64,000 nucleotides of DNA, from positions 63,403-127,402 of the forward strand of contig CACVBU010000605.1 in the NCBI GenBank assembly GCA_902728285.1, in the 5' to 3' direction. Shown here in pieces: positions 1-63,958 of the stretch. Under the pieces are notes generated by a model. It saw only the letters and a list, made by a program, of their open reading frames with translations. It did not search any database and was not told the origin of the DNA. Each line of letters starts with the position of its first letter. Position 1 is the stretch's first letter. Both the position numbers and the translations under genes were made by a program. The DNA is from Clytia hemisphaerica (lineage: Eukaryota; Cnidaria; Hydrozoa; Leptothecata; Clytiidae).

Positions 1-889
1 GAAAGGAAATACACAATGAATTTTGTAATAGCAGTTAAATTTATTTCGTTTGATAAATTTCGGACGTAGTAGGAATTTCAAAACGTTCGAATACAAGAAA
101 ATACTACTTTTCGGACGTCAAGGAAGCAAGGGTTCGAAGACATTCGAAAGTTTGACGTTCGAATGTGACATTCTAATACTTTTAAAGGCCAAAACGTTCG
201 AAAATGTGACGTTCGAATACTTTAAAGGGCCAAAACGTTCGAAGTGAAAGTGTTCGTTTATTTTTAAAGGTCAAAACGTTCGAATCAGCTGAGCTAGAAA
301 AGAAACTGTTTCCGAGCTGTATAATTTGAACTTATTCGGTTTTTAAAGTGACAAATCAGCTGATTTTTACTCCGTGTTGAATAAAATCACATAACATTAA
401 CGAAAAGGAAAAGTGGACTTTGATGTATTTCTCCATTGACGAATCGACGGTATCCTATTCTCACAAGCCGTGTACAGTGGATAGAAAAAGGGAAGGTTGG
501 CAATGTGTTGGATGGAAATAAAATGATCCGTGGAGAAGTGTTGGAACGAGAAGTAAGTTTCTCAGCAGGAGCTGCCTGTTGATATTTAGACAAAAATTTT
601 ATCACTTATGAGTTCCCCCGATTAGCTTTTGTTAATTTCGGTAATTTTTGTTTGATAATATTCATTCTGTACAAACTTTCATTTCATTTTGTCACCTCTC
701 CTTGTATTATGAATAAGAAAGACTGATCAGGGATTCCTTGTTTTTTTCTCTATAAGCATAACTTAAATTGGCCATGGTTGAATTAAGAGCTACGATAGTA
801 AAAGAATTGGCTAATTAACACCCCGAAGCCTTGGCAACCTGATATTTTATCCAAGAAAAGTGTACACTATCAATTTATTTCTTTAACAG
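1..889. other. Left-edge non-coding stretch with TTCGAA cluster
   Basis: No supported gene. Positions 60-290 hold about ten copies of AACGTTCGAA or TTCGAA-like motifs at irregular spacing; the small ORF there is a by-product of this repetition. A gtaagt-like donor near 551 could belong to an upstream exon of the BEN-like gene, but I could not match its phase to the exon at 890. Confidence 0.4.
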
Positions 890-3800
890 GGACGAAAGGT
901 GAACTAATCGAATTTGATTTGGAATGGCAAAAGAAAAAAGCTGAACAGACTAATGAGGTATAAAAATTTTTTCTCGATTTTTTCTTCCTTCTTTATCTGA
1001 TCGGATCGGATGAAGTCTTTGCGATGCTTGTAGAATTAAAACGGTAACGGATAAGAGAAGCGATTCACGTTTGCGTTCAATAGCGTCTGCGATTATTCGG
1101 TGGTTTTCGAGTTAAATCGTTTTCGATAACGAATTGAGAGAAGCGATTCTTGTTTACGTTCAAAAGCGTCTGCGATTATTCGGTGGTTTTCGAGTTAAAT
1201 CGTTTTCGAAACGAATTGAGAGAGCGATTCTTGTTACGTTCAAAAGCGTCTGCGATTATTCGGTGGTTTTCGAGTTAAATCGTTTTCGATAACAGATTGA
1301 GAGAAGCGATTCTTGTTTGCGTTCAATAGCGTCTGCGATTATTCGTTGGTCTTCGAGTAAAATAGTTTCGATAACGGATTGAGAGAAGCGATTCTTGTTT
1401 TCGTTCAATAGCGTCTGTTTCATCTGAAATAAAGGAAGAATAGCTTAGTTTGTTGGTCAAAAAATTTTTACTAACATTTAGTGAAGAGAAAAATAATACA
1501 TGTTTTTTATAAGCATACAAAAAACCAAAAGCTGGCGCGGAAATGCTTGGCTCGAGAGATTAACAAAGCTGAAAAATATTATCATTCCAGTAGAGGCCAC
1601 TATATCCAATGAAGTATAAGCCCGAAGGGCTAGAAATGACAGATTGAAACTAAAATTTACTTCTAAATTTCGAAAAAAATATCAATCGTAAAGAAAGGAA
1701 TTGCTAGATTCAATCTGTCGTCAAAAATGCGGCGCATTTTATAAGGCTTCACTTTTTCTTGCCTGAGAAAGGTTAGAGATTTAAAGGGATAATCAGATGG
1801 TTTGAGATATTTTGCCTATAGATAGCTTCTAGGATTTTAGGAAAAACTCCTAAATTTTTGGGTGTACTTATTTTCCTGACTCAAGTTATACCACTTTGAA
1901 ATTTTGAACCTTTGCTTGAAAACAATAGAAAAAAGTGTGAAAAGTCCCTGAAAAGTCCCATTTTTCGAGATTTCAAATTGGTATAACTTGAGTTAAGAAA
2001 ATAAATACACCGAAAAATTTAGAGGTTTTTCCTAAAATCCTAGAAGCTATCTGCAGGCAAAATATCTCAGACCATCTGATTATTCCTTTTTAACTCTACT
2101 TTGGGCTTTAAACTCAATGACTATATCTTCCCTTGTACAAGAAGTTGTGCAAGGGATTTTATGAATTAATTATTGCTCATCTGAAAATTTTCAATTTTGT
2201 TCAGGGGGGGGGGTCTTGCAGTTACTCCTTGACACTATGTGGAGTAACTGCAATTTTGGACATTTTCTACAGACACCACCACCCCTGCAGTTATTCCATA
2301 GTGTACTAACTGATTTTACCCTCAAAATTGGTGTATACCACCCCTAAAAATGCCAAATTTGGTAATTTTTTCACTGAATTCCTCATTTTTGATAGCATCT
2401 TACTGGGTATGTCTTATCAACTTATCAACGACCGTTCAAGAGTTAAATATCCAAGTTTGTTAAAATATCTTTCATGCCTTGATTTTGATTGAAGAAAAAA
2501 TTTTGTGATTTTTTTTTTACTTTTGAAAAAAAATATTTTGAATTTTTTTGCTTCCGGAATTTTTAAAAACCTAAAATGTTAAGTGAAAAATTGAAAAATT
2601 TGCTCACTTAGTACACCATATCCTACCAAAATCGACAATTTTGGGCTTAGGCACCACCCATGTTGCAGTTAGTCCACTGGTGGAGTAACTGTTTTCCCAA
2701 ATTTTGGTTTATATACCACCACGGTAGTAATTGTCATAGTGTTTATATAATAACTGCATGACCCCCCCTGTTTTGTTTGAAGTTTGTTAAAGCTGGCAGT
2801 TAAATGTACTATCATTTTTTAGAACTCAACTCTGGTAAAGTCAACATCACCAAAATCAACCACAAAAACAAAGTCAAAACAGGTCGCGGAGCCATCAAAG
2901 TCCAAAAAGGTTGCCAAGCTATCAACATCTAAGCAGGGTGGTGCCCTGTCCAAAAAGGTTGTTGAGCCATCAAATTCAAAACAGGTTGCCAAGCCACCAA
3001 AGACTACAACAAAGGTCACGGAGCCAACAAAGTTAACCAAGAAAAAGGTCACTAAGTCATCACATTCCACCGAACCACCAAAATCAAAAAAGATTGTTGT
3101 CGAGCCAGCAAAGTCAAAGCAAGAAACATCAACTACCAACAAAAGTAAATCAAAACTAGTAAGATAGAGGCCCCCCCAGTCGACCCTCAATTCACGTATT
3201 CACGTGCAAATTTTTGCCAATTCACGTATTCACGCGCGAAAAAAACCATTTTCACGTTCACGCGGTAATTTTGCTTTACTTGTTAAGGGTGGCAACAGCA
3301 ATGTTAAGGCTTAGCTTTAAAGGATTTCCCTCCGATTTTCTTCGTCGCAGACCCGTATCTATCAAGGATAAATTTCAAATCGAGGCTTGGCCTAAAATCA
3401 TGGACTGGAAAGTCTCAGGCTTCAAAGAGGTGGTGCAAGAAAAGGTCGTCTAGTTTGACCTTCGTCTCCTAGAAGGAAATTTTTGGAAAAGAAGACCGCG
3501 AGCGAAGCGAGCGCGAAAAATTTTCGACAATTTTTTCTTCTTTTATTCCCGGCTAGTTCGAAACGCAGGTCACAGGTCACAGGTCAACAGGTCACAGGTC
3601 ACAGGTCAGTGATGACAGGCTGACTCTAATCAATGTCATTGCAGAGGAAAATGTTTGGAAAACACAAAGAATTATCAAAAACATAATTCTCAAGCAATTT
3701 CATCCATATAAAACCATTTCAAACATCAAAATTTAACCATGTGCTTTTATCGATCTTTCGCAGTTTGCGCCGTGTATAACGCAGACCAGAAAATTTAAAA

Positions 3801-6800
3801 CCATACGTATTATACGTATAACAGGTATATTACATATTGTAATGTTTGTAATGTTATATGATGGTTACAGATAATAAAACTCATCGCTCTAAAACTACCT
3901 TCTCAGAGAACTCACGAGCTTCTGATTGGTGTAATTTTATATCCAGCCATATTGTTATCATCACATTTGGTATGCTAAATATTTTTGGTGTTTTTCTCTT
4001 GTAAGACATGATATTTTGTGATCCTGTCAACATTTTTGTCAAAAATTGTCATTAAGTCATTAAAATAACAATTGAATGATTAATTAGTTTCATCCTTCTA
4101 AAACCACTCTCTTAGGGACCTCACAAGCTTCTGATTGGTGCCGTTTTATATCCATTCGCACTATCAACATCACATTCTGTATTATAAATATTTTTCGTGT
4201 TTTTGTCTTGTTAGGCAACATATTTTATGATTTTGTCATTATTTTTGTAAGTAAGTGTCACTAGGTTGTTATTTTATTCAATTGTCATTTTATAATATCT
4301 AAATAACATGTATTACTTTTTTGTAATTTAATGCGTTATGTATTGATGTTATGTTATGGGCAAAGACTTTCCTAACTGAAAGTGACGCCCCCAAAATAAC
4401 ATAACATATGTATTGATGTTATGTTATGTATATGTTATGATCTTATTATCTTTTTTCCGGTCTGCACTTTGTTGACCTGTGACCTGTGACCTGTTGACCT
4501 GTGACCTGTGACCTGCGTTTCGAACTAGCCGTTTTATTCCTGAGAAAACGGTCTTAACACGCTATTGTTAAACCCAAGTAGCCTTCTTGGTCACACAATT
4601 CATTCAAAATCTTGCATTATATTCAACACTGACCATTTACTGGCAAAAACCTGGTACGGCGAGCGAAGTACCTGCCCTACACGGTGCGGCATCACAAGAG
4701 TTTCTTCTGAATGTTCGATGATGCATTTATACAAGATTTATTAGAACTACCTATTTATGTAAATTATTAAAAGAGCAAATACCGTTCCCTGTCTCCAAGT
4801 TAATGCGGTATCATTTTGTGTACTGCATTTAGTAACAATATAAGTGACTACAGAAAGACGACCATCATTAGCGTCGACCGAGAAAATTTTCTCTAAGACT
4901 CTTTCGTTTTGGCTCAAAACACTATCGTTTGATGCATTATTTGCATTACAAAAGTTGTCATTAAATGTTACAAAATGCGTCCTCAGAAAAATATGGAAAA
5001 ATATTTGTTTATCTTTAAATTTTATAAAGTTTTGATTATTTTGAATAACTTTACAATAACATTACGTCAGTATGATATCCAAGATTATATGCGAGCGAAG
5101 CGAGCAAGAAAATTTTTTAGATTTAGGTTTATTTAGTTTTGTTCTAGACAATAATTCGCTTTTCACGCAGTTTCACGTTCACGCTCAAAATCTCGATTCA
5201 CGAATTCACGCTGGAAAAATCTTATTTTCACGTTCACGTTGATATCTCAATTCACGTATTCACGCGCCGAAAAAGTCCAATTCACGTATTCACGACAGAA
5301 AAAAGGGTCATTCACGTGTCACGCCAACCCCTGGGGGAGCCCCTAAGATACTTACAGTTATTGTAATAGATATTCAAAATTGACTTTAGTATTTCCCCAT
5401 CATGTGTAGTGGTCCAAGTCTAGAAGAAAAATAAATTTGTAACAATTTAAAGATAATTTTGGGTTACTTTGAGAAGTTATCATGATATTTAATTTTGGGA
5501 AGTGAAAAAGGTCATATTCTGGTAAGAGCTGATATTTTGAAAATTTAAGAAAATTCTTGAAAACTAGTTTTTGCCAAAATGAGTACTTATAATAAATAAT
5601 TTTTTCAAGTAAGAACAAGTAATGACCATGAAAACTATTATTTATTAGGTGATGGATGGAAAACCAAAATCTAAATCAAAAGCAGCTAAATCTGAAAGAG
5701 CTAAAGACTCAGTTAAAGATAGCAGTGGTCCAGAACCGGTAAAATACTTACAATTATTAGATATTGCTAATAGAGTTTCCAAAATCTTGTTCCAAGTTTG
5801 TCACAGCTCTTAAGTTTGTATTCACGTGATGTCAGAAGATCCACAAGAACTGAAAGTGAGAAGGAAGACAAGGACTTATCTTTTTGTCACTGTTTATTTT
5901 TGGACGGGCAAATTTTGACAGGAAAGTAATTCATAATCTTAATTCAAATCAGTTTTACAGGATTTTTACATTTAGTAGAATAATGACTTGTTTTATTCAG
6001 AGCTCGCGTTTTCATTTTTATAGGATCGAAAAATGAGTCAAGGAGAGAAAGATGTTGTCAAAGCCTTCCACCACCGCCAAAGTAGTAAGATGGAAAAGTT
6101 CAACGGGTTCTTAGTTGAAAAGGTTGTATTATCCAAAAAGAAAAAGGTTAAAGCAAAAGATCCACGAAACTTTTTAGAAAAACCTAAAAGAAATCATCAC
6201 CATCACTGTCACCGTCACCCTTGCCTTTGGTGTCAGAATCAGGTTTACGACAGTCTTTGTCACCATGGTCACCTTCAAAGTTACCATCGCAATCTCGGTC
6301 CCCATCACGTTTACGTTCATTGTCATCTTCAACTTCAAGCTCGTTAACATTATCATCTTTACTGTCAAGCTTGTGTACATCATCATCTTTACCATCACAT
6401 CCACGTTCACCGAAAGCGAAACTTCTGGAGACTCCGTCAACTGTGGACAGGTTATCTCCATTGTCTTCAACAGCTAATTCGCCATCCTTTGGTCAAGAAT
6501 TATCAAATGTGTCGTTTACTACACCAGTAGCAAAAAGCCCAAGACAACTGAAATCTAGAAAATCACCAATTGCAAATAACCAGGCTGTGGCTGTACAAAC
6601 ATCACCAACAGTTGATTCCATCATCCAAAGAAATGGCAGCCCTGATTTTTCAAGACTATTTGGTTCTACTCAATCAACCCCGTTCAATCACAAAAACATG
6701 CAAATTGAAGATCTACGTCGTGACATTACAGAATGGAAAGAACAGATGAGTAATCAATTGACAGAAATCAAATGTCTTTTAACAAATTTGACTTCTCCTC

Positions 6801-7405: not shown

Positions 7406-8770
7406 AATTTCAAAATTTTAGACATCTAGTTCCAATAGTGCACCTTAAAGGTTTTATTTTCACATAAGTGTTCCCGCTTCATACCAGGAGTCTTTCCGAC
7501 CAATCTTGCTCCACATTTGTGTCAATTCAATATAAAAACGCTTGTAAATCAAAATTGATAAGTGAGCAAAGAATATAACTCTTATTAACTATCAGCGAGT
7601 CCATTAGTTTGATGGCTTTTATGAACGTTTTGAAAGTTTCCCAACTCAAAAAAATTTTCACTTACATTTTACAATTATGTGACCCAAATTTCTCAAGTGA
7701 CTGGTCTGTAGCCAACCTTTTTGAATGCCCGATGAACAATACATCCATCTTCCCTTTAAATAAAGACAAAGGAATTTCAATTACTTTAGCATTTGAAATG
7801 TTTTGCAACTATGAGACTTTTAGGAGATTTTACATTCTTATGAGATGCTACTCAATATAATCGATTTTTTCTTCTTGATGGTTCTGCAAATGCTCCTTTC
7901 TAACATTTGATTGCAAAAATTAATTTTCTTTAGGAATATTGTATATTATAGGTATACTGTAAAAGTAAAAGTTGTAGTTTTTTTCCAGAAAATTTTGAAT
8001 CATTTTGTTCTTTTATTTATTTAGATACTTATTTTTCTAATTCCAAATTCACAAGGAAAGGTTTTGTAAGCCTACTTTAATTATTGAATAGAAATGTTTG
8101 TATTATTTTTGCAAATTACCCGTATTTTGAATTGCATGCTTGTCATTATATCTTAACTTTTAAAAATTATTCTAGTGAAAAATAGTCAGTTTTTTCCACG
8201 CCCACAACTTTTTTGCAGCAGCCACTAACTACCCACAATATTTTTCTAGACCCCTAAGATTTTATCTGGATATACCAGACATCATTCCAGATCCACAAGA
8301 TTATTTCACAAACAAGATTTTCTTTGGGACCCACAAGGACGAACATGCAAAAGGCAGTAGGGCTCAATCCACGAGAGCATGTAATTAATCATTCTCAGTA
8401 AGAGAATAAAGCTTAGATCACAAATAACTAATGTTTGCATTGTCTAATTATAATTGCACAAGAATTCTATTTCAAAATAATAACAAAGATAATATTCCAT
8501 TTCCTGTTTTTGCGGAAATGTTTTAGGCAGTCATCCAAAAAATTCTGTTCGCGTTGCAAAGGGTGTTAAAAATACATGCGGGCGGTCGGACAGGCTGTCG
8601 AAAAAATTCCCAGGTTTTTTTTTAAAAGCTACACTATAAAAGAACAAATTGCTTTTCTTTGATTTCTTTCGAATCTCCACACCGGAAAATCAGAGGGTGG
8701 GTGACACAAGGAGAAAATTTTTTCGATGACCGCCGTATTACCTCTATTCCTTAGTCATAACAGAATTCCA
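7406..8770. other. Intergenic, no supported gene
   Basis: The 3' flank of the BEN-like gene. The 83-codon ORF at 7609-7860 has low-complexity AT-driven composition and no recognisable domain. A stretch at about 8260-8388 is open in one frame (reads DIIPDPQDYFTNKIFF) and might be an isolated exon; no clear splice partners were found. Confidence 0.4.
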
Positions 8771-9306
8771 ACCAGACGTCCGCGCTCGATAGAATCGATC
8801 ATCGGAATGGCTCGATGACGGATCGATGGATTACTTAACGATCCGGATGGGAGATCGATGGAAGATTCAGCCATTAAAAAGTCTTGAGTATCGATCCTTC
8901 GTTGATCCATTATCGAGCTAGTATTTCAATCGAGTATATCGATTCGTTATTGATCGTTAATCGATTCGTCATCGATTGTTAATCGATTCGTCATCGATTG
9001 TTAATCGGTTCGTCATCGATTGTTAATCAGATCGTCATGGATTGTTAATCGATTTGTTATCGATTGTTAATCGATTTGTTATCGATTGTTAATCGATTTG
9101 TTATCGATTGTTAATCGATTTGTTATCGATTGTAAATTGAGATCGATAAAAGATCGATGATAGATCGATAATTAATCATGAGCTTAAAAAAATCTTGAGT
9201 ATCGATCCTCTATCGATCTCCCATCCGGATCGTAATCCATCGATCACATATCGACCCGTCATCGAACTGTTCCAATGATCGATCCTATCGAGCGCGGACG
9301 TCTGGT
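8771..9306. mobile_element. Foldback element with 22-bp ATCGAT satellite core
   Basis: Inverted ends starting ACCAGACGTCCGCGCTCGAT (8771) and ending in the complement at 9306, arms about 120 bp. The target duplication is TCCA (8767-8770 and 9307-9310). The core (about 8935-9140) is about nine copies of a 22-bp unit, CGATTCGTCATCGATTGTTAAT or variants. The whole element is dense in ATCGAT palindromes. Non-coding. Confidence 0.85.
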
Positions 9307-9310
9307 TCCA

Positions 9311-10335
9311 AGAACCACAGTGACTAACAGTCCACACACAAACACAGCAAAACAGTGTGCCCTTTATTTGCAATTTCTGTCAGATTTCATTTCTGCCCAA
9401 CTGTTAGTTTTTGAAGTTCATTTAGATTCAGACAATTTTTTGCCAACCACTAACTCATTTTTTTACCTAAAAACTACACAAACACAAGTTATTTGTGATC
9501 GTGGCCTTATTCAATTGATTCATTTTTTCATTCAGTAGTGTGGCAAGTATAAATTTTCTCTGTATTTGTCAAAGGCAGCTTAACCTTGCCCCTTGGTCAT
9601 GAAGGCTTGTATAAAATTCAATTTTGATTAGAGCCTATTTTCTTGTAAGGAGAAAATAGTTACTAGTTTAAAATAGCAGGATTGCCACTTACAGTATAGC
9701 TATGTAAGCTTTCTTTTTGTGAAGTTTCTTCCATGTGTAGTTTCTTTCATGTGTGAAGTTTCCTCCAGTCCAGTGAACCTCCAGCTTGAAATTTCTAAGT
9801 AAAAGAACTTGCGATGTTCGATGCTCACATGTGAATTCTTGAGTTCGAGCTTTGTATATTTTGCCGAACATTATAAAATCCCCGAACAGTCATGTAAAAA
9901 ACAATTCCGTAAAATGTATGCTGTTTGTTATGATTTCTCGTTTGCCGGCAAACGTTTCGAGCGGCAAAATGTCCGCACCATGACCGCACTGAATACCGCA
10001 CTTATTAAAATGGTGCTCTTTAGTGACCGATCGAGTGCGTTTGAATGGATTTTTAGAAAAGATTTTTGGATGATTTCTGGCCGATACAAAGGTACCATTT
10101 GACCGCACGGTAAATCGTTTCGCCGCTTTTTTGCCGCACATTTTATCGAACTGTCCGCACCAAGACCGGTCTCATTTTTAATGTACTCCAAATCGCTTGG
10201 GGGGTCACAAATGTCCAGTCGTTTATATGTTCATGGTTTTATATTTTAAAGATAAAACCAGTCTAATAACCAATCAGATTGGAGAGTCAATCCCACGTCA
10301 GAAGCCAAAACAAAGTTCTATATTTTATTTCTCAG
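9311..10335. other. Intergenic / upstream of unrecognised gene
   Basis: No supported exon. Positions 9930-10170 contain a cluster of CCGCAC motifs and the palindrome AAACGTTTGCCGGCAAACG-like sequence; overlapping ORFs on both strands there are not convincing. Confidence 0.35.
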
Positions 10336-17562: not shown

Positions 17563-19016
17563 ATGAGCCAAGATAATCGAAATGTCCTGATTGATGATGA
17601 TGAAGGGGTGCCTGCTGAGAGGGGTAGAAGAACTGCTGCTGAAAATGCGAACAGCAGACTCAGCAGCGCAGACAACTTGCTTTAGAGCGGGTTAGGAATA
17701 GGCATGCTAATGAAAATGAGCAGCAGACGCAGGAGCGCAGACAACTTGAAAATGAGCAAGCTAGGGACAGGCGTGCAAATGAAAATGAGCAGCAGACGCA
17801 GGGGCGCAGACAAATTGAATTAGAGCGAGCTAGGGACAGGCGTGCAAATGAAAATCAGCAGCAGACGCAGGAGCGCAGACAAGTTGAATTAGAGCGAGCT
17901 AGGGACAGGCGTGCAAATGAAAATGAGCAGCAGACACAGGAGCGCAGACAACTTGAAAATGAGCAAGCTAGGGACAGGCGTGCAAATGAAAATGAGCAGC
18001 AGACGCAGGGGCGCAGACAAATTGAATTAGAGCGAGCTAGGGACAGGCGTGCAAATGAAAATCAGCAGCAGACGCAGGAGCGCAGACAAGTTGAATTAGA
18101 GCGAGCTAGGGACAGGCGTGCAAATGAAAATGAGCAGCAGACACAGGAGCGCAGACAACTTGAAAATGAGCAAGCTAGGGACAGGCGTGCAAATGAAAAT
18201 GAGCAGCAGACGCAGGAGCGCAGACAAGTTGAATTAGAGCGAGCTAGGGACAGGCGTGCAAATGAAAATGAGCAGCAAACGCAGGAGCGCAGACAAGTTG
18301 AATTAGAGAGAGCTAGGGACAGTCGTGCAAATGAAAATGAGCAGCAGACGCAGGAGCGCAGACAAGTTGAATTAGAGCGAGCTAGGGACAGGCGTGCAAA
18401 TGAAAATGAGCAGCAGACGCAGGAGCGCAGACAAGTTGAATTAGAGCAAGCTAGGGACAGGCGTGCAAATGAAAATGAGCAGCAGACGCAGGAGCGCAGA
18501 CAAGTTGAATTAGAGCGAGCTAGAGACAGGCGTGCAAATGAAAATGAAGGACAACAGCATAGGCGAAGGAATATTAATGCTCAAATTCAAAGGAATAGGC
18601 GTGCAAATGAAAATATTGAGCAAGGGCGTCAAAGGAGGCAAGCAAATGTAGAGCGAAACAGAAATATTCGTGAAAACGAAAATGAGGCACAGATTGCACA
18701 TAGGCGTAGAGGGGATAATGCCCGGCACCGCAGACCAAGGCGCTTGAATTTAGCTCACATTGGTAACCCCCTTCCTGATGAACACTATTTAGGAGCTTTT
18801 AACCATGTTTGTGAGTTTTGTGGGGCCTTGAAATTTGAAAAAGAAGATGAATTCAAGTGTTGCTCTAAAGGCAAAGTTTCCCTGCCTCAATTAGAACCTT
18901 TTCCACCTCAACTTCAACATCTTTTCACTGATGATTCAAATGAGGCCAAGGAGTTTCGAAAAAAATTCGTATTTACAATAACACTTTTGCTTTTGGGTCT
19001 TTTTCTGCCAACTTGA
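17563..19016 (+). CDS. Helitron protein N-terminal extension (frame-broken)
   Basis: ATG at 17563 opens a frame (SQDNRNVLIDDDEGVPAE...) that must shift by -1 near 17650 to enter a long Arg/Glu/Gln-rich repeat region (unit read as ENEQQTQERRQVELERARDR). It then continues through RRLNLAHIGNPLPDEHYLG and a CxxC pair (CEFCG, with a later CC), typical of the region before the Rep domain in Helitron proteins. The frame ends at 19016. A -1 shift at the seven-A run 18959-18965 would join it in phase to the main ORF at 19013. Confidence 0.7.
17652..18545 (+). repeat. 69-bp coding tandem repeat, about 13 copies
   Basis: Unit length is exactly 69 bp (23 codons); GCGTGCAAATGAAAATGAGC recurs at 17771, 17840, 17909, 17978 and so on. 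A higher-order period of 207 bp (three units) is visible: the variant GGGGCGCAGACAAATTG appears at about 17800 and again 207 bp later. It encodes a charged helical, Arg/Glu/Gln-rich segment of the Helitron protein. Confidence 0.9.
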
Positions 19017-61800: not shown

Positions 61801-63958
61801 ATCTATTTGTGCAAAAAATGCATTTTTTGATGCAAAAATCAGCACATTTGAGAAAAATTGACCCAAGAAAAAAAAATTTGTTCTGATGGGACCAAAATAT
61901 AGAAGTCTCTATGTCAAAATGTACCCTAAAATTTTAGTATATTTGGAAAATAAGAAAAATCAGAAATAAAAATTGTTTATTCTGGTACAAATTCCTCACA
62001 TACTACTTATGTTAGTGTTTTTAGTACCCATGGAGGGAGTACTTAGGCAAAAATGGGTGCTGGGTATGTGAGAACGGTAAGGGTCGGTTTTCAAAGTCTC
62101 TCTAAGGGTTACAAAAATCAGAAAAATTAAATTAGTCTCTAAGGATCAGAAAATTTATGATTTGGAGAATTTTTCTTGATTTAGAGTGAAAAAATTGTAA
62201 AAAAGTCTCTCCGGGTTCGGAATTTTTCAGAAATCATTGAACATTTTTCAAAAGTCTCTCTAAGGGTCAGCTTTAGGAGTCCCATCCGCACATACCTCTC
62301 ATCCGCCAACCCTAGTACCCCGGGTTTTAGTACCTGTGACTGAGACCAAAAAAATCCAGTATATCACAACGTCTAAGTTTTAATACTGGGCTTGACTAAC
62401 CCTCACTACATATGATATGTTTCTTCTATCCTGTATAAAAAATTTCTTTTCAAAGATTCAATAAAGTGGGATTGTGTTTGTCTTACACCTCAACAACACG
62501 TAAACTGGCTGAGCTTGGAGTTGACCATGACAAGACCGTCAAATCTTGGGGCAATAAAGTCAGAGACGAACAAGAATTTTTGACCAAAAGCGTCGAGGAA
62601 CAGCTCCTTTCTCCACAGAATATTCCAATCGTTAAAATATCAAATCTAGCAAGTGAGTAAAATCTCGGCATAATAAAAACAGCATTTCTGATGATAGACA
62701 GAAATAATTTTTTGCTTTATAAATAAGTTTACTATCGTTTCCTACTTAGGGGGTTAATACAGAGAAAGGCAAGAATTATATTGTTTGGACACTGTCAAAG
62801 TGTATTAATTCTATTAAGCAAGAAAAAGTAACTTTATATAATTAGATGTCAATACTGACAAGTTATTTACAACTTTTTTAAATAAACAAAGCCTAATTTA
62901 GACAATTATAAGTAGATAAAAAGCAATCCTAAGGCTTTCGACAATATTCCCTTGTCAGAGCGTATATCGTCATTGAAAATAATAAAACAATAACATTTTT
63001 AGAGAAAACAAAACCAGATGATCAGAAGCAGCCACCGACCTAAAATTTGCAAATATCTGTTCTGATTTGCCAGCTGGAAGGATTTCCACGAAATAAAGAA
63101 CAGTTCCTCGTTTTCCAGGCGAGAAATTTTTACTTCAGAACAGTTATATTTTTCCAGCTAGGAGGTAAAAAAACTTTCAGAACAGATACGAAATTACCAG
63201 GCGATTGATTTTACGCGAGTTAACTGTTCTTATCTACCAGGGCTGACAAAATCTTATAAGAACAGATCGGTAAATTCCAGCTTGACATTGAAGGACTTTT
63301 AAGAACAGAAACTTAATTTCCAGCTAACAGTTCGAACAGATCCACAATTTCCAGATGTTTTGTAGAACAGATGGAGAATTTTCAGCTGCCACTCCAGGCA
63401 ACCACATTCAGGACTTTTTTTAAATTCCCTCAGAACAGATAGGAAATTCTTAGACACGTTATTTATAAATATAAGATATCAGACTATTTTTTCATAAGAA
63501 CAGATCATATTTTTCCAGCTGGTCCCAATCTTCAGTAGAACAGATCATATTTTTCCAGCTGGTCCCAATCTTCAGTAGAACAGACCATATTTTTCCAGCT
63601 GGTCCCAATCTTCAGTAGAACAGACCACTTTTTTCCAGCAGACTTTTTTCTTTAGTTCGGTAAGAACAGACCGCCATATCCAGCTGGAACGTGCCTTCAG
63701 AACAGATATTTTGAAGTCCTCCTTCGGTGGATGCTTTCGGATGATGAACCTGATGAACAACAAGAAATTGATGAACCAGAAGGCGAACTTGACAAAAAAA
63801 TGCTAGAGCTTTCCTTGTACAGAAACGACCTATCAATAATTGAATGTCTCAATGGCAGATTCATGTTGGTGGATGACAACGTTGATATAATGCTAAAACG
63901 TAGACATTATACAACATCAAAATCAAATCAGGATTTGCATTTGTGTCATGCTATTGCT
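58862..63958 (+). CDS. Second DUF6589-like gene, partial, runs off the window
   Basis: Well-supported exons: 59119-59172, 59394-59468, 60867-61330 and 62456-62652, all phase-consistent, then an exon from about 63701 to 63958 with a gtaag donor. A possible first exon (58862-59074) encodes FNKCVCCGVTKRTEVLS. The 60867 exon ends QVINTCVLRRGQVKKEVYGR and splices to FNKVGLCLSYTSTTRKLAE, the pattern of DUF6589-type proteins. The last exon carries FMLVDDNVDIMLKRRHYTT and LHLCHAIA, equivalent to IVGGNLDFEKRTR in the minus-strand gene. Unlike that gene, these exons carry no frameshift. The phase between 62652 and 63701 does not match, so a small exon is missing or the acceptor differs. Function unknown; the C-terminal half lies beyond the window. 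Confidence 0.65.
60286..60485. repeat. Dispersed 200-bp repeat, copy 2 (SINE-like)
   Basis: Partner of 52294-52492; lies in the intron between 59468 and 60867. A tRNA-like fragment (GTATCCGAGTGGTCGTACGG) lies about 130 bp to its left at about 60157. Confidence 0.8.
63057..63705 (+). repeat. Array of about 16 two-part modules AGAACAG-(17/18)-CCAGCTGG
   Basis: AGAACAG (or GAACAG) begins at 63097, 63137, 63179, 63259, 63302, 63333, 63364, 63432, 63497, 63537, 63577, 63617, 63663 and 63699, with inverted TGTTCT at about 63057 and 63224. In twelve copies a CCAG or TCAG block, often extended to CCAGCTGG, starts 17 or 18 bases after AGAACAG begins. Gaps between modules vary in sequence and length, except for three 40-bp identical units at 63497-63616. 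The array fills the 3' part of an intron of the plus-strand gene. Confidence 0.8.

Follow-up and report, generated by a model that had tools for sequence, protein, structure and literature searches.

A two-part motif array in Clytia hemisphaerica DNA makes up a 717-bp nonautonomous transposon with 6-bp target duplications

Introduction

Target-site duplications of hAT transposons are usually 8 bp long. The two ends of Hermes are unlike each other, measure about 450 bp and have imperfect 17-bp terminal inverted repeats (TIRs) as well as 17 and 14 short subterminal repeats, and left repeats 2–7 are oriented opposite to the first (PMC10368747). Ac/Ds elements have many AAACGG repeats that are bound co-operatively, and short derivatives arise via internal deletion; some elements without the subterminal hexamers still move (PMC3260210). 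Kat1 is a further known parallel (PMC4763223), and 6-bp duplications are described for hAT6 (PMC12730594). The soybean CACTA element Tgmt* has asymmetric two-part subterminal motifs, its left side having 4 in a span of 159 bp and its right side 24 in 732 bp (PMC2613891), and CMITE of Acropora is about 100 bp long, has TTAA duplications and has been linked to piggyBac (PMC2872659). Duplications of 6 bp are also on record for IS3EU, GingerRoot and Polinton; IS3EU ends in TA..TA and GingerRoot in TA..TA or TG..CA (PMC10045372). Dada makes duplications of 6–7 bp, inserts into small RNA genes and is described as having no TIRs (PMC3706591).

Here we describe a 717-bp element in a stretch of 64,000 nucleotides of C. 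hemisphaerica DNA, hereafter called the window. Its layout is comparable to that of Hermes, with unlike ends, imperfect TIRs and repeats that largely run opposite to the first one on the left. It differs from hAT elements in that no transposase was seen, in its motif and in its right end, CGAAAG. Tgmt* is likewise a large element with two-part subterminal motifs, but there the termini are CACTA with a 3-bp duplication, whereas here they are CAGAAG...TTTCG with 6 bp. Like CMITE, the element is short and nonautonomous with a conserved interior, although CMITE belongs to a different family. The literature searched contained no paper recognisable as describing the 717-bp element, though it may have a Repbase or Dfam entry. 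We regard it as a new family of an ordinary kind, the nonautonomous transposons that carry subterminal repeats, here in unusually pure form.

Results

Ends, target duplications and empty sites

A first-pass annotation had placed a regular array of short modules at 63057–63705 of the window. The modules are present there, but the feature is larger and has exact ends. A search of the species' own genome (417 Mb in 951 contigs) with this stretch gave 315 candidates, the best 40 of which were scored and showed 98–100% identity. Twelve copies fetched with their flanks, the window copy included, have 717–718 bp in common and are surrounded by unrelated sequence. The other 11 are 99.16–99.58% identical to the window copy and have exactly the same ends, which lie at 63023 and 63739 (forward strand).

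All 12 near-identical copies are flanked by a 6-bp duplication. In the window this is GATGAT, at 63017–63022 on the left and 63740–63745 on the right, as seen from both the comparison of copies and the empty sites. The duplication is perfect in 31 and longer in none of 34 complete copies. L032 and L056, both among the 34, agree in their duplication and in their neighbouring sequence and probably represent a single insertion. The three exceptions are a single mismatch (L031), a match over 5 bp (L037) and AAATGA displaced by two bases (L039). The flanks of the window copy recur without the element at two loci, C453 and C827, where GATGAT is found once; these are empty sites, and their downstream flanks are 98% identical over 261 bp and 95% identical over 172 bp, respectively.

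The array thus makes up a mobile element, a nonautonomous DNA transposon of 717 bp with exact ends, 6-bp duplications and empty sites. Defined inverted-repeat termini, a duplication of fixed length and many non-coding copies of similar size make it MITE-like. A satellite would consist of tandem units at unrelated positions and have no element ends; the exact ends, the duplications and the empty sites do not agree with this.

The TIRs are 16 bp long and imperfect, matching at 13 of 16 positions. The left one (CAGAAGCAGCCACCGA) occupies 63023–63038 on the forward strand, and the right one, which reads CGAAAGCATCCACCGA inward on the reverse strand, occupies 63724–63739. Both ends open with CRRAAGCAKCCACCGA when read inward. 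In both, the TIR is followed by exactly 12 unlike bases and then by AAATATCTGTTCTGA at base 29, so that the outermost sites face inward and are equally far from their respective ends. The palindromic CCAGCTGG stands at base 48 on the left, completing the left-most site (63051–63077, reverse strand), and at base 53 on the right. The orientation of the right-end site is common to all other sites except the one at 63224.

Host sequence around the insertion

The array had been taken to lie in an intron. This location is unproven, because a possible 3' splice site, TTTTTAG, lies 20 bp before the element and both paralogues have a frame, reading EKTKPDDEPDDQQ or ETTKPDDEPDDQQ, that runs through the empty site without a stop. 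The insertion may instead lie just inside an exon, judging from these reading frames. The short downstream piece matched no Pfam family.

Composition and spacing of the modules

Sixteen sites were found in the element, in agreement with the approximate number first noted: 13 exact AGAACAG and one CGAACAG on the forward strand, and two CTGTTCT that represent the reverse strand. The left subterminal array (63097–63354, forward strand) has AGAACAG at 63097, 63137, 63179, 63259 and 63302, CGAACAG at 63333 and a reversed CTGTTCT at 63224. In the right subterminal array (63364–63705, forward strand) AGAACAG is found at 63364, 63432, 63497, 63537, 63577, 63617, 63663 and 63699.

The second part of the module, CCAG, had been described as keeping a constant offset of 17 or 18 bases. 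This is true of 11 of the 14 forward modules (nine at 18 and two at 17); two of the others have TCAG or TTAG at offset 18, and the right-most one has no such part. The composite of AGAACAG and CCAG occurred on average 0.035 times, and at most once, in 1,000 dinucleotide shuffles of 63057–63705. AGAACAG or CTGTTCT is found four times in the 63.3 kb of the window outside the element. When the entire window was scanned less strictly, with two mismatches allowed and at offset 17 alone, the 15 matches did not exceed chance (11.65 expected; 18 of 100 shuffles reached 15); the majority of modules have offset 18.

Successive forward sites are 31–80 bp apart across the whole element. The spacers, first described as variable, do mostly differ from one another, and AGAACAG, CCAG and the 17–18-bp offset are retained between them. 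This does not extend to 63497–63639 (forward strand), where the right array contains a plain 40-bp tandem unit in 3.6 copies, the sole array that Tandem Repeats Finder detected in the element.

Copies and size variants in the genome

The left 25-mer of the element matched 215 places in the genome with at most two mismatches and the right 25-mer matched 162, while the reversed-pattern control gave 0 in both cases. Pairing was done with the matches listed, i.e., 100 of the 215 left and 100 of the 162 right ends. These 200 ends gave 57 left-right pairs, 53 of them 561–760 bp long and 22 exactly 717 bp, and copy lengths among them cluster near 677, 717 and 757 bp. A copy of 678 bp has one junction between 40-bp units fewer but a copy of 760 bp has no extra one, and the link of copy length to unit number is not general.

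The remaining four pairs are long (1,245–5,640 bp). They were considered as autonomous partners, at C273 (3,460 bp), C93 (1,815 bp), C133 (5,640 bp) and C562 (1,245 bp), and rejected, since the fetched sequences are copies split by foreign insertions. Among the listed ends, 43 left and 43 right ones were unpaired. A right end was found within 901 bases in 16 of the 40 left ends fetched, and a left end in 7 of the 20 right ends fetched; the others are cut, split or part of longer relatives. At 155 bp, the copy L084 is made up of the two ends with two AGAACAG, and its CTAAAC duplications match.

The composite AGAACAG-N10/11-CCAGCTGG occurs at 603 places in the genome, and its reversed control at none. 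Of 100 listed places, 68 lie at most 1.5 kb from a listed end of the 717-bp family, which is a lower bound because the listed ends are 200 of 377 and the other 177 could not contribute. With these numbers the array does not behave as a diverged ordinary satellite at random positions with variable motif spacing, the outcome that would have spoken against the first-pass annotation. Among the other 32 listed places are loci whose inner letters differ and, at C128, the right side of a long relative. AGAACAG-N11-CCAGCTGG with different inner letters is found away from listed ends at C34:794589, C75:1424781 and C89:402001, which possibly represent a diverged sister family. An exact-pattern search did not find the left end in viral contigs, and Rfam had no match in the window.

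A long relative sharing both ends

Four left ends (L033, L042, L043 and L047) run past 390 bp into common sequence. Searches with pieces of this sequence and of its continuation at C265 gave long matches at C265, C273, C522, C540 and C128; the numerous further matches are to short dispersed fragments. C522:437388–449073 is a relative of 11,686 bp with both ends present and TTTTCT on either side. All 16 of its sites ([AC]GAACAG or CTGTTC[TG]) lie in its first 329 or last 439 bases and none in the 10.9-kb interior, a clustering near both ends of a full element that comes from the one long copy read. At C128, the positions of the left-hand match and of the right-hand modules imply a second long copy.

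The 717-bp element aligns with this relative from its left end to about 330–360 and at its right end from about 320–340, the left array to the left end and the right array to the right end. The two alignments overlap at approximately 63343–63385 of the window, the putative internal-deletion junction where left-end and right-end sequence meet. The short element resembles a pair of subterminal arrays that came together when a longer element lost its interior; we infer the direction of this change from the aligned sequences.

Inside the relative at C522 (L088, L090 and L089), at element positions 7790–10199, there is also a repeat about 550 bp in length, which occurs at C273 as well.

Transposase search and superfamily

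No open reading frame (ORF) of the 11,686-bp relative exceeds 128 aa. Sixteen ORFs reach 75 aa or more, and the 10 of these that were compared with Pfam gave no meaningful family. The sole Pfam match, Phage_tail_X (E 0.043, below cut-off), is implausible.

A tnp2-like ORF of 649 aa was found about 8 kb inward of the left end at C265. It matches Transposase_21 just below the Pfam cut-off (E 1.9e-6) and DUF1258, also below cut-off. We rejected it as the partner transposase because it is absent from the C522 element and from 8.9 kb read at C273, and because the other tnp2-like matches are unlinked to listed ends: when the 99 best matches were compared with the 200 listed of 377 ends, C265 alone had one inward within 20 kb. 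The linked tnp2 transposase of CACTA/EnSpm elements was not seen in this comparison. A hAT transposase was sought in the same way, and the 99 best Dimer_Tnp_hAT matches included four within 20 kb of the 200 listed ends, all on the outer side. Such comparisons have limited power because they take in 100 left ends out of 215, 100 right ends out of 162 and the best candidates of each search.

The ends of the element, CAGAAG...TTTCG, and its 6-bp duplication also speak against CACTA/EnSpm, which has CACTA termini and about 3 bp. IS3EU and GingerRoot were rejected on their TA..TA termini (for GingerRoot also TG..CA), Dada since the element has TIRs and varied duplications rather than no TIRs and a small RNA gene target, and the piggyBac-linked CMITE on its TTAA duplication. 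The 6-bp duplication is a feature shared with Polinton. It is also that of hAT6. Compared with the hAT terminal consensus, the left CAGAAG fits partially and the right CGAAAG poorly. Membership of hAT6 is possible, with a duplication of the right length and right-end letters that do not clearly fit. It could also be imagined that the element stands for an undescribed superfamily or deep lineage with 6-bp duplications, whose transposase would read a rigid pair of AGAACAG and CCAGCTGG palindrome 17–18 bp apart at both ends and whose short derivatives would hold little else; we regard this as unlikely.

Other repeats in the window and in copies of the family

The stretch 3551–4530 of the window has inverted ends of 58 bp, with GGCTAGTTCGAAACG followed by six CAGGTCA heptamers and the reverse complement at 4473–4530. 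TTTTATTCC is found on both outer sides, and the stretch is likely another DNA transposon. Its heptamer includes AGGTCA, which is nuclear-receptor-like. At 17652–18547 a 69-bp repeat is present in 13 copies that are 92% alike; its length is a multiple of three, and it is possibly a repeated coding stretch.

Two of the foreign insertions were also inspected. The one in L023 (~311–5147, about 4.8 kb) lies in a copy of the 717-bp family, has the ends GAGGCCCCCCCAGCGG and CCGCTGGGGGGCCTC with CTAAAT on both sides, and would seem to represent another family that makes 6-bp duplications. The insertion in L022 (~418–1502) has long inverted ends (CAGTCAGGGACAGTCGCCTTATTAGGAGACG) and a stretch resembling a tRNA T-arm, although ARAGORN detected no tRNA in it.

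Discussion

The modules fill a mobile element, and in the long relative the sites are confined to the ends; for these reasons we read them as subterminal repeats. Most likely, a module-rich-ended element some 11.7 kb long lost its interior, so that a left array of about 330 bp and a right array of about 440 bp came to adjoin. A transposase supplied in trans would then bind the two-part site, AGAACAG followed 17–18 bp on by CCAG(CTGG), along both ends and bring the two ends of the element together. Cutting would take place at the 16-bp TIRs, followed by insertion with a 6-bp stagger. We consider it very probable that the element is a deletion-derived short transposon whose modules are transposase-binding subterminal repeats, a reading that infers the deletion, the binding and the identity of the transposase. 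Two observations count against a need for the array. Ac/Ds elements that move without their hexamers speak against the necessity of subterminal sites, and L084 has only two AGAACAG and yet matching CTAAAC duplications; either few modules suffice or its deletion followed insertion.

Among 17 copies below 96.5% identity, with the window copy as reference, 6.2% of non-CpG module sites and 9.2% of spacer sites have changed, a ratio of 0.68, and 4 of 684 shifted masks give a ratio as low. One of these copies, L038, is 61% identical and badly aligned; when it is left out the ratio becomes 0.70, a value attained by 32 of 684 shifts. L056 had been dropped as a duplicate, and the 17 copies share history. 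Module columns contain slightly more gaps than spacer columns do (13.5 vs 11.9%). Module conservation offers weak support for a binding role. The composites that have other inner letters at other loci would fit a constraint on the site.

The modules could also be a by-product, a minisatellite that expanded within a transposon and kept AGAACAG and CCAG through shared ancestry without any binding role. Tandem repeats within short mobile elements have been reported (PMC4596501, PMC7492417), the right array does contain 3.6 plain 40-bp units, and the conservation test is weaker once L038 has been removed. Outside the tandem units, however, the spacers differ while both parts and their 17–18-bp offset persist, the long relative has sites at both ends and none in its interior, and the composites at C75:1424781, C89:402001 and C34:794589 have been kept despite their other inner letters, all of which makes this origin distinctly unlikely. 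The first-pass annotation had offered three functions for the array, and the anatomy of the element favours subterminal repeats that a transposase would bind; the steroid-receptor/E-box platform and the decoy acceptors it also named rest on motif resemblance.

AGAACA and CAGCTG resemble steroid-receptor-type half-sites and E-boxes, which a host might use as a co-operative enhancer platform carried on a transposon. Of the 14 forward modules, though, only 5 have CAGCTG after them, and the anatomy of a transposon already accounts for the arrangement, so we find such a platform very improbable as an explanation of the array; a side effect of the modules on host genes as an enhancer is possible. 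A decoy array of 3' splice acceptors (TTTTCCAG), through which transcripts would lose the element by splicing or take it up as an exon, would agree with the pyrimidine-rich CCAG in the majority of forward modules and with an insertion 20 bp past the possible acceptor TTTTTAG. An acceptor needs neither an AGAACAG partner nor a constant offset, however, and we give this idea hardly any credence.

With the deletion-derived transposon as the preferred reading, a puzzling array has been resolved into a bounded mobile element with natural size variants of 155 bp, 559–796 bp and 11.7 kb. As these variants differ in module number, they offer a ready series on how many subterminal sites the transposase needs. 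They also call for caution elsewhere, since clusters of enhancer-like or splice-acceptor-like motifs can be transposon ends.
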